Origin: Bacteroidota bacterium
GTDB taxonomy: Bacteria > Bacteroidota > Bacteroidia > Chitinophagales > Chitinophagaceae
NCBI GenBank assembly: GCA_004292605.1
Contig: RDXK01000099.1
Coordinates: 1 to 55,664 of the forward strand
Length of the DNA: 55,664 nucleotides
Direction of reading: 5' to 3'
Shown: positions 1 to 860 of the stretch, piece by piece
Position numbering within the stretch: position 1 is the stretch's first letter
How the letters are laid out: each line of letters begins with the position of its first letter
Translations under genes and position numbers: made by a program
Notes under the pieces: generated by a model
What the model saw: the letters and a program-made list of their open reading frames with translations, nothing else
The model's database searches: none
Told to the model about the DNA's origin: nothing

Positions 1-683
1 GGTAGACCGGGTAGACCGGCAAACGTATTGCCTGTAGTGGTGGGTAAGCCCGAACCTACAGTACCTATACGAGGGTTGCTACCAGAAGCGTTAGACATGT
101 ACAACTGGCCATTGGCTATGGCTAAACTCCTTGTATTGGTTACTGTGCTAGCTACTAATACGGACGTATTACCAGCACCTTTCGCAATATAATACTGACC
201 CGAATTAGACCCTGCAAACCATATATTGTTACCGTCATCGCTTACCGCGGATCGAATGGAACTAGTACCATAGGTAAACGTTGTGGAAGCGTCAACTACT
301 TCATTACGGTCAATCACCGCTACCACCCTATTACCGGCTGCACTGACTACTGCGGACACCCCAACCGGCTGATCATAACCACAAAGCAACAATACACTTC
401 CATTTGCCGAACGACTTAACTGCCCCTCGGAACTAGCCGAGCCCGCAATGGTTAGTCTATTTCCAGCTGTTGTATTAGGAATCACTACTGTTTGTACATA
501 AGTGCCTGTGGGGGTGTATTCATCTAAGAATACTGGTACGGATGTGTTACTTAGGTTAGCTGTGCCTGCCCCATTACTGGCATCGCCACCTGCACGGGAA
601 ACTACAATGTTTCCGGCGGTAAACTGTGCCATGGCCACTTTCCCCAGCAAACTAAAAACGAACAGGGTGTACAATTTTTTCAT
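1..683 (-). CDS. Secreted repeat-type surface protein, N-terminal part (runs off the left window edge)
   Basis: Reading leftward from an ATG at 683 there is an open frame to base 1 (227 codons visible; the C-terminus lies outside). The first ~20 residues are a signal peptide (MKK, then a hydrophobic run ending KVAMAQ), so the protein is exported. The rest is rich in Gly, Ser, Thr, Asn and Val, with segments such as VSDDGNNIWFAGSNSGQYYIA and SLAIANGQLYMSNASG, in the style of beta-propeller or NHL-like surface proteins of Bacteroidota. The last visible residues repeat LPGLPGLP. No enzyme motif is seen. A T9SS sorting domain would be expected at the missing C-terminus but cannot be seen. A good promoter lies just upstream. 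Confidence 0.8.
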   Translation of the reverse strand, partial: MKKLYTLFVFSLLGKVAMAQFTAGNIVVSRAGGDASNGAGTANLSNTSVPVFLDEYTPTGTYVQTVVIPNTTAGNRLTIAGSASSEGQLSRSANGSVLLLCGYDQPVGVSAVVSAAGNRVVAVIDRNEVVDASTTFTYGTSSIRSAVSDDGNNIWFAGSNSGQYYIAKGAGNTSVLVASTVTNTRSLAIANGQLYMSNASGSNPRIGTVGSGLPTTTGNTFAGLPGL

Positions 684-704
684 ACGTAGAATTATTTTTT
701 GGCA

Positions 705-735
705 CAAAATTAAAAGAATTTAGAAAATGTTAAAA
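705..735 (-). promoter_or_regulatory. Bacteroidota-type promoter of the left-end secreted protein
   Basis: On the minus strand the -7 box TAATTTTG (712-705) matches TAnnTTTG exactly. It is preceded at 19 bp by TTTT (735-732), one mismatch from the -33 TTTG. The start codon is 21 bp further on. The surrounding sequence is AT-rich, in contrast to the GC-rich element directly upstream. Confidence 0.5.
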
Positions 736-750
736 AATTGTTTAAGCCCT

Positions 751-850
751 GGCTGAGGGATGCAGCAGGCCGCTGAAAGCGGGTACGAAGTACGGAACCC
801 TGTAGCAGCCCGACGGCGAAGCGTGGCCCTGTGTGTGGCCGCCGGCAGCC
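751..850. repeat. GC-rich intergenic element made of consecutive small hairpins
   Basis: This ~100-base block is far more GC-rich than the rest of the window, and it is non-coding, where most intergenic DNA here is AT-rich. It is a chain of short inverted repeats: GCTG/CAGC (752-755, 763-766); CCGCT-GAA-AGCGG (770-782); GTAC-GAA-GTAC (783-793); an ACGGC-GAA-GCGT hairpin with one bulge (813-824); GGCC/GGCC (825-828, 837-840); and the palindrome GCCGGC (841-846). GGCTG at 751-755 can also pair with CAGCC at 846-850 and close the whole block. Three of the hairpins have the same GAA triloop. It sits between the GSCFA stop and the next promoter. It looks like a dispersed intergenic repeat or structured RNA, but only one copy is seen in this window. 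Confidence 0.6.
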
Positions 851-860
851 CCAAAAAAAT

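Follow-up and report, generated by a model that had tools for sequence, protein, structure and literature searches.

The GC-rich DNA at positions 751 to 852 of the window, the whole stretch of 55,664 nucleotides that was analyzed, appears to be a divergent member of a structured repeat family that is dispersed in Bacteroidota and of which Flavo-1 would be one branch, and it is most likely a miniature non-autonomous mobile element (probability of about 0.6). It is a repeat, its fold is borne out by covariation, its edges are mostly bounded, and it shows no significant strand preference. Because the copies are mostly intergenic, lack that preference, are absent at 80 homologous GSCFA loci, and, where at least 85% alike, mostly stand between unrelated flanks, a small non-autonomous mobile element fits them better than a small RNA gene or a terminator does. 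One strand (here the plus strand) folds into a closing stem (P0), a long main arm, and a short side arm (P3); the long arm has purine mismatches and variable hairpins at its tip, and the element ends in CC before AAA. We propose that the element was copied with its boundaries intact, as one unit, into DNA that is mostly intergenic, presumably by an enzyme acting in trans, and that a protein supplied in trans would recognize the fold, in the form of folded single-stranded DNA rather than RNA. The element was probably once mobile, or still is, without being autonomous.

Sequence and predicted fold of the window copy

A preliminary description of this DNA had read positions 751 to 850 as an array of small hairpins with a shared GAA triloop. 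All of the pieces that it named are in place, including both GAA hairpins, GCGAAGC at 816 to 822, and the outer GGCTG/CAGCC pair, and the GC excess over neighboring DNA was confirmed (0.68 at positions 750 to 849 versus 0.25 at 650 to 749). The features are as follows.

751..852, + (the folding strand): whole element; limits from covariance-model matches
751..755, +: outer stem P0, 5′ side (GGCTG), partner 846-850; DNA and RNA folds, P0 covariation across copies
846..850, +: outer stem P0, 3′ side (CAGCC), with a near-constant CC after it; DNA fold, outer-stem test, covariation in alignment A4
757..769, +: main arm P1/P2, 5′ side (GGG-A-TGC-A-GCAGG); DNA fold, family-wide conservation of the GGGAT box
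799..811, +: main arm, 3′ side (CCTGT-A-GCA-G-CCC), within the family box AGCCCGA; DNA fold, conserved family box
770..782, +: apical hairpin 1 (CCGCT-GAA-AGCGG); sequence, GNA loop enrichment in 13 copies taken as the subtype
783..793, +: apical hairpin 2 (GTAC-GAA-GTAC); sequence, apical counterparts in copies L007 and L037
814..844, +: side arm P3 (CGGCG...CGCCG, inner GCC/GGC); DNA fold
816..822, +: GCGAAGC mini-hairpin; alternative fold to side arm P3
744..750, +: 5′ flank AAGCCCT; common to one other copy of the same genome, on contig C48
861..1853, −: GSCFA-family gene (context); Pfam PF08885, E = 4.2e-84
3..707, −: next gene (context); open reading frame (ORF), no Pfam match at E ≤ 0.001

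Whether such triloops are easily obtained by chance was assessed by shuffling. Positions 756 to 852 hold three GNA-triloop hairpins with stems of at least 2 bp (shuffled mean, 0.6), a count reached by 7 of 300 shuffles, and two with stems of at least 3 bp (shuffled mean, 0.1), reached by 4 of 300. Folded as DNA, positions 749 to 854 form a closed three-way structure of the outer pair, the main arm with both GAA hairpins, and the side arm. Two of the three GAA hairpins first proposed are present in this best fold; the third, GGC-GAA-GC, competes with the side arm at 814 to 844 and is absent there. Closure of the whole by the outer pair, also part of the preliminary description, is seen in the DNA and RNA folds alike, and P0 covaries among copies. 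The DNA fold has an energy of −24.2 kcal/mol, equaled by 15 of 200 shuffles (27 of 200 for the complementary strand). The RNA fold of the same positions has nearly the same shape, with a stability not above that of shuffles (119 of 200, and 89 of 200 for the complementary strand), and 153 of 200 shuffles were as stable as the RNA fold of positions 731 to 870. Energy by itself is no proof of the structure of the window copy; that proof comes from its related copies.

Related copies and covariation

A direct BLAST search of the element against its own genome (2.97 Mb), a copy count that the preliminary description had suggested, returned the element itself and three weak, short matches, of which two lie in other copies (one on contig C48, one in a copy end on C130) and one does not. 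The C48 element is homologous, has the same boxes, and as a query finds many more copies. The proposal of a dispersed repeat was substantiated by 27 copies in this genome, that of the window included: 20 from covariance model R1 (E ≤ 0.01) and seven more from the Rfam Flavo-1 model (RF01705), model R2, and other matches. The search covered Bacteroidota genomes and IMG/VR; the assignment of the host to Chitinophagaceae and of the phylum to Bacteroidota is judged from homologues of the GSCFA gene. R1, made from 22 copies including the window's, has matches in 24 of 59 genomes of relatives, its own among them. R2 was made from 78 copies, leaving out the window copy and copies L007, L037, and L039, and its matches at E ≤ 0.001 fall in 32 of the 198 phylum genomes, the window's own again included; its counts per genome are "at least" figures, with no more than 22 candidates per genome scored, and the E-values of both models are rough. 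Within one genus (g99), each genome with R2 matches has 5 to 22 of them. Copies are 68 to 189 nt long (75 to 150 nt in 76 of 80).

R2 matched the window copy at 751 to 852 with 24.4 bits and an E-value of 0.0011, its sole match in the window at E ≤ 10. R2 was trained without this copy, and its training rows were collected and aligned using R1, which had seen it, so that the membership test is not wholly independent. By these scores, membership in the family is significant, clear but weak, and the score is weak because the main arm is shortened relative to the family. The copy has the extended family's architecture, with P0 closing GGGAT...AGCCCGA and the side arm, followed by CC.

RF01705 gave 15 matches in this genome at E ≤ 10, of which 4 are above the Rfam cutoff. 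Since weak RF01705 matches, none above the cutoff, also occurred in 10 of 14 control genomes, only matches showing the boxes in their sequence were accepted. Two of the four above the cutoff (on contigs C282 and C311) are R1 matches, and the one on C18 is an R2 match at E = 0.0013. The fourth, on C230, reached 61.8 bits with RF01705 despite an R2 E-value of only 0.19.

Some candidates were set aside. A copy search with the pattern GGGATGCAGCAGGC, allowing 3 mismatches, was not specific enough, and among four BLAST matches in relatives only L007 was a copy, with no element seen on reading L005, L006, or L008. Also excluded by reading before counting were L060, L061, and L062 of the window's own genome and the pattern matches L029, L031, L035, and L036; an RF01705 match on contig C307 was excluded before counting as well. 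Alignment A1 omits some real copies: L058 and L059, which lie at contig ends, and eight of type B/C that had been recognized by that stage (L071, L072, L075, L076, L077, L079, L082, and L083).

Two further repeats were seen in or near copies in the same genome. Read by eye, the apical loop of eight copies (L207, L208, L211, L213, L214, L218, L219, and L221) contains a CCCCCnTTGGGGG-type palindrome, and this palindrome of a C run and a G run suggests that a second repeat family may be nested in the first. Upstream of four copies is another dispersed or tandem repeat, of the TTCATCGC-TTGCGAAGAATGT-GAAATGAC type (L208:1345-2200, L217:350, L219:1979-2127, and L221:160).

The covariance check on aligned copies, likewise suggested at the outset, gave compensatory changes above shuffles in all three alignments. 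In A1 (MAFFT, 22 copies, the window's included), which was not fitted to structure and in which part of the 3′ side of P0 was misplaced by MAFFT, 12 of the 20 pairs showed changes in both partners, in 52 cells versus 18.9 in shuffles. The covariation score was 0.295, against 0.014 to 0.066 for slid controls. RNAalifold recovered only 7 pairs from A1 (P1 and the base of P2), P0 not among them. The counts from the other two alignments are inflated by fitting to the structure: 16 of 20 pairs changed on both sides in A4 (38 matches; 115 cells versus 26.9 shuffled), which has no row in common with the R2 training set but was aligned to R2, and 20 of 20 in A2 (80 matches; 275 cells versus 66.9 shuffled). 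P0 pairs were kept in 97.3% (A2), 98.9% (A4), and 92.4% (A1) of cells. P3 is the least supported arm in all three, with 81.0%, 81.5%, and 62.2% of cells paired, respectively.

Of the structured RNA put forward in the preliminary description, the structure thus stands, and the folded form may be RNA or DNA. A single copy without compensatory changes, which would have told against the description, is not what was found: there are 27 copies, and their stems covary. The same results bear on the idea that GC-rich DNA folds here by accident. Such a fold would be in keeping with the unexceptional RNA folding energy of the window copy; it is refuted by the homologous copies, by the match to a model trained without the window copy, and by the covariation, and we give it hardly any credence.

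G082 and G094, two species of one genus with 73% identical DNA over 950 bases, both carry a copy at the same orthologous site; the two copies show compensatory changes and differ in the apical hairpin. Retention at one site is also consistent with a host function under selection.

The window copy belongs to a rarer subtype with a shortened main arm and two apical hairpins, which is missed by Rfam. The apical part reads GTGC-GCA-GCAC in L007 and GCAC-GAA-GTGC in L037 by eye. Among 396 genomes of the order, 7 contain matches to a two-core-box pattern for the subtype, 10 in all. In nine of the 10, which include the window copy and four from a single genome, CC follows a perfect 5-bp outer stem, and neither feature is part of the pattern; the tenth (L029), without the outer stem, is probably a chance match. 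These nine outer stems have six sequences (GGCTG, GCGTA, GCGTG, GCGCG, GGGTT, and GCGTT), and the shifted 5-mers used as a control at all 30 places examined paired 4 times in 660 trials. From viral contigs, 3 of 19 subtype matches (L302, L303, and L317) were kept, chosen after the outer-stem results were known, so that the resulting split of 12 of 13 versus 0 of 17 places with an outer stem was not blind; the unselected figure comes from the genome places, 9 of 10. Loop counts in the subtype used 13 copies chosen likewise, after those results. In L037 (genome G056), a hairpin GCCCG...CGGGC apparently separates the main arm from the outer stem as an insertion, as judged by eye.

Placement, flanks, and the form of the element

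Placement was assessed with ORFs called by a simple longest-ORF rule. At ORF cutoffs of 110, 130, and 150 amino acids, 8, 5, and 4 of 86 copies lie mostly within an ORF. With the 150-amino-acid cutoff, 70 copies have genes on both sides, 18 between convergent genes, 10 between divergent genes, 18 in tandem contexts in the same direction as the genes, and 24 against it. Strand preference in tandem contexts was not significant at the three cutoffs (16:27, 17:26, and 18:24; P = 0.13, 0.22, and 0.44).

The preliminary description had also offered the end of the GSCFA operon and a spacer as an explanation. A broader form would make the element a bidirectional transcription end or a stabilizer of mRNA 3′ ends, here ending the GSCFA operon transcript. 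In favor of such a role, the window copy is 8 bases from the GSCFA stop codon (and 43 bases from the start codon of the ORF at 3 to 707); gene ends lie within 60 bases of an element for 28 of 84 neighboring 3′ ends versus 17 of 74 5′ ends, and convergent contexts outnumber divergent ones. However, the ratio of convergent to divergent contexts does not differ from that of neighboring gaps (P = 0.30, 0.17, and 0.16 at the three cutoffs), divergent genes do flank 10 of the 70 copies, and the sole terminator call between 600 and 1000 is at 968 to 987, outside the element. As a negative control, R1 at E ≤ 1 had no match in the surroundings of 80 homologous GSCFA genes (535,585 bases; best protein identity, 65%); the element is therefore not tied to the GSCFA gene. 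The operon-end proposal is not supported by these results, and a terminator or stabilizer is quite unlikely.

Flanks were compared for 47 within-genome pairs of copies whose elements are at least 85% identical (19 from G027, 13 from G071, 9 from the window's own genome, and 6 from G011; three pairs without upstream sequence were omitted). These pairs come from four genomes only and are not independent. Downstream, mean flank identity was 0.51, 0.77, and 0.68 at the first three bases, which reflect the common AAA, and 0.19 to 0.45 at bases 4 to 30. Upstream, it was 0.30 to 0.57 over the first 13 bases and 0.17 to 0.43 at bases 14 to 30. Exceptions are L201/L204, with 13 of 15 bases shared upstream, L228/L229, with 13 of 15 downstream, and G071, where at least 8 of the 15 upstream bases agree in 9 of 13 pairs. 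For elements of 85% identity or more, the flanks are thus mostly unrelated, and similarity mostly stops at the element edges. Across 110 copies, G is rare at the two positions that precede P0 (0.03 and 0.01), the three bases after the element are A in 0.65 to 0.76, and GC content is 0.59 in the element versus 0.38 and 0.31 in the flanks.

No direct repeats beyond those in shuffles, as a target-site duplication would leave, were found in the 110 copies; some mobile elements make no such duplication. In a search for an empty site, genome G001 was too distant, matching the flanks of the window copy at 64 to 70% only and on two contigs; the shared site of G082 and G094 is filled in both, and the phage relatives of L257, L258, and L259 gave no clean pair of empty and filled sites. 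For L257 and L259, these relatives were too few for site comparison. For L258, the homology between L325 and L323 ends at the element edge, and L324 matches only from 113 bases past that edge.

Copies are also present on phage-like DNA. Among the proteins of three IMG/VR contigs with good copies are a portal-like protein, a head maturation protease, and a transposase plus a phage-type repressor; a stricter Flavo-1-like pattern gave 0 matches in viral contigs. One contig (L259, 9.2 kb) has three clear copies and a weak fourth (E = 0.13), together with a transposase and a CI-like repressor. When L323 is set beside its phage-like relatives L325 and L324, the DNA homology is lost at the element edge or close to it, as if at a module boundary. 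No transposase or binding protein was linked to the element in this analysis.

Loops and energies bear on whether the folded form is DNA or RNA. RNA prefers GNRA and UNCG tetraloops. In the accessible part of one study, C-GNA-G loops such as that of GCGAAGC are described as extra-stable DNA mini-hairpins (PMC10527192). Among 87 copies, GNA triloops on stems of at least 3 bp numbered 34, versus a shuffled mean of 11.3 (maximum of 21 in 100 shuffles), and neither GNRA (4 versus 6.3) nor UNCG (2 versus 1.3) tetraloops were enriched over shuffles; TNC, the complement-strand form, was also up (10 versus 5.0; maximum, 9). In the 13 subtype copies, with stems of at least 2 bp, GNA numbered 25 versus 5.4 (0 of 300 shuffles reached 25), TNC 2 versus 1.8, GNRA 0 versus 3.1, and all tetraloops 40 versus 54.6; GNRA and UNCG loops are absent from the subtype. 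The 84 other copies gave 65 GNA versus 42.4 shuffled, 32 TNC versus 17.0, and 23 GNRA versus 24.3 at stems of at least 2 bp. At stems of at least 3 bp, these copies had 10 TNC versus 4.4, a deficit of triloops (105 versus 138.1), and an excess of tetraloops (175 versus 135.9). The loop evidence is clean in the window's subtype and mixed in the wider family, where the excess of TNC and of tetraloops weakens part of the argument for DNA loops. On the sense strand of the 87 copies, the mean z-score was −1.71 as DNA versus −1.48 as RNA, a small difference (P = 0.01), and this strand folds better than its complement under both DNA and RNA parameters. Because the copies are related and the energy models differ, these loop and energy differences are hints.

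Under an RNA reading, the family would be a small RNA or an RNA-protein binding module, and its copies would be RNA genes or parts of mRNAs. Strong covariation that includes G-U pairs would suit this well, as would sense RNA folds more stable relative to shuffles than antisense ones (mean z, −1.48 versus −0.72), the overall tetraloop excess of the wider family, the retention of a copy at one site in two species, and the entry of Flavo-1 in Rfam as "Gene; sRNA" (RF01705). Against it are the lack of a significant strand preference relative to neighbors, copies at least 85% alike in mostly unrelated sites, and loops enriched for GNA rather than for GNRA or UNCG. In Flavobacterium psychrophilum, moreover, the accessible part of a transcriptome study places Flavo-1 matches "indistinctly" sense or antisense and many of them outside transcribed regions (PMC9723704). 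On balance we consider the RNA reading unlikely.

Comparison with known systems

The behavior of the element fits the "REP-like" label of the preliminary description, but the family does not, in size, in three-way architecture, or in the setting of the genome's one Y1 match. Like GTAG/CGTC REPs, the element is dispersed, mostly intergenic, and palindromic, with hairpins, very short loops, and presumed non-autonomous mobility, and CGTC-type REPs are reported from Bacteroidetes in the accessible part of a published account, which puts REPs at 20 to 40 bp (PMC3733652). A REP mobilized by a RAYT-type Y1 transposase would also be in line with the one Y1_Tnp match of this genome (L086, at the start of contig C311). 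Unlike REPs, the element is larger (102 nt with three arms, and mostly 75 to 150 nt among copies), has an enclosing stem, and has no associated transposase that was found. Neither GTAG nor CGTC was read at the edges of the window copy. The association with RAYT was checked in this genome only, where R2 finds no element in the 2-kb Y1 locus; RAYT was rejected as the carrier because the Y1 gene stands beside another repeat and has no R2 match there. A REP of this kind is highly improbable. Beside the Y1 match are three tandem units with CCGTAGTC...GACTACGG-type arms, REP-like and unrelated to the element.

GCGAAGC-type DNA mini-hairpins offer a second likeness, as C-GNA-G triloops recur in the element and its subtype. 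In the part of the work consulted, those hairpins are synthetic oligonucleotides (PMC10527192); a role within a natural dispersed element would be our extension.

The closest relative is Flavo-1 (RF01705), published by Weinberg et al. in 2010 (PMC2864571). A core arm with purine-rich 3-by-3 internal loops is the same in both, and R2 and RF01705 match the same stretch in loci L284, L286, and L288, with L270 matched weakly by R2. The two differ in that P0 and side arm P3 of the R2 copies are unpaired in Rfam's 76-position model, and RF01705 above its cutoff coincides with the main element in only 3 of 20 fetched R2 loci; its fourth match above the cutoff is elsewhere in L270, at a weak R2 match. 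The window subtype, with its shortened main arm and two apical hairpins, differs further: Rfam gave no match at E ≤ 10 in positions 600 to 1000, so that the RF01705 gathering cutoff of 42 bits was not reached. These comparisons of sequences and models suggest that Rfam's model covers less than the whole Flavo-1 superfamily, of which Flavo-1 would be one branch.

In the accessible part of a review, Flavo-1 is among the most abundant bacterial small RNA families, with no function given there (PMC9029176), and the F. psychrophilum study found that its matches give no real functional clue, as strand is ignored and many matches fall outside transcribed regions (PMC9723704, as far as consulted); Flavo-1 is reported there as widespread in Flavobacteriaceae. 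The literature on Flavo-1 and RF01705 covered here, in its accessible parts and with most subscription journals outside coverage, holds no description of it as a mobile DNA element. We tentatively suggest, as a possibility well short of an even chance, that Flavo-1 is a branch of a phylum-wide single-stranded-DNA element with a closed three-way fold and GNA mini-hairpin caps, which a hairpin-recognizing enzyme would spread and which phages would carry too. Such a DNA element predicts the strand- and transcript-blind matches seen in F. psychrophilum, and Flavo-1 as a dispersed DNA unit would, if true, explain them. The outer stem and side arm described here are supplied for a better Flavo-1 model, to which the window copy adds a subtype that Rfam misses.
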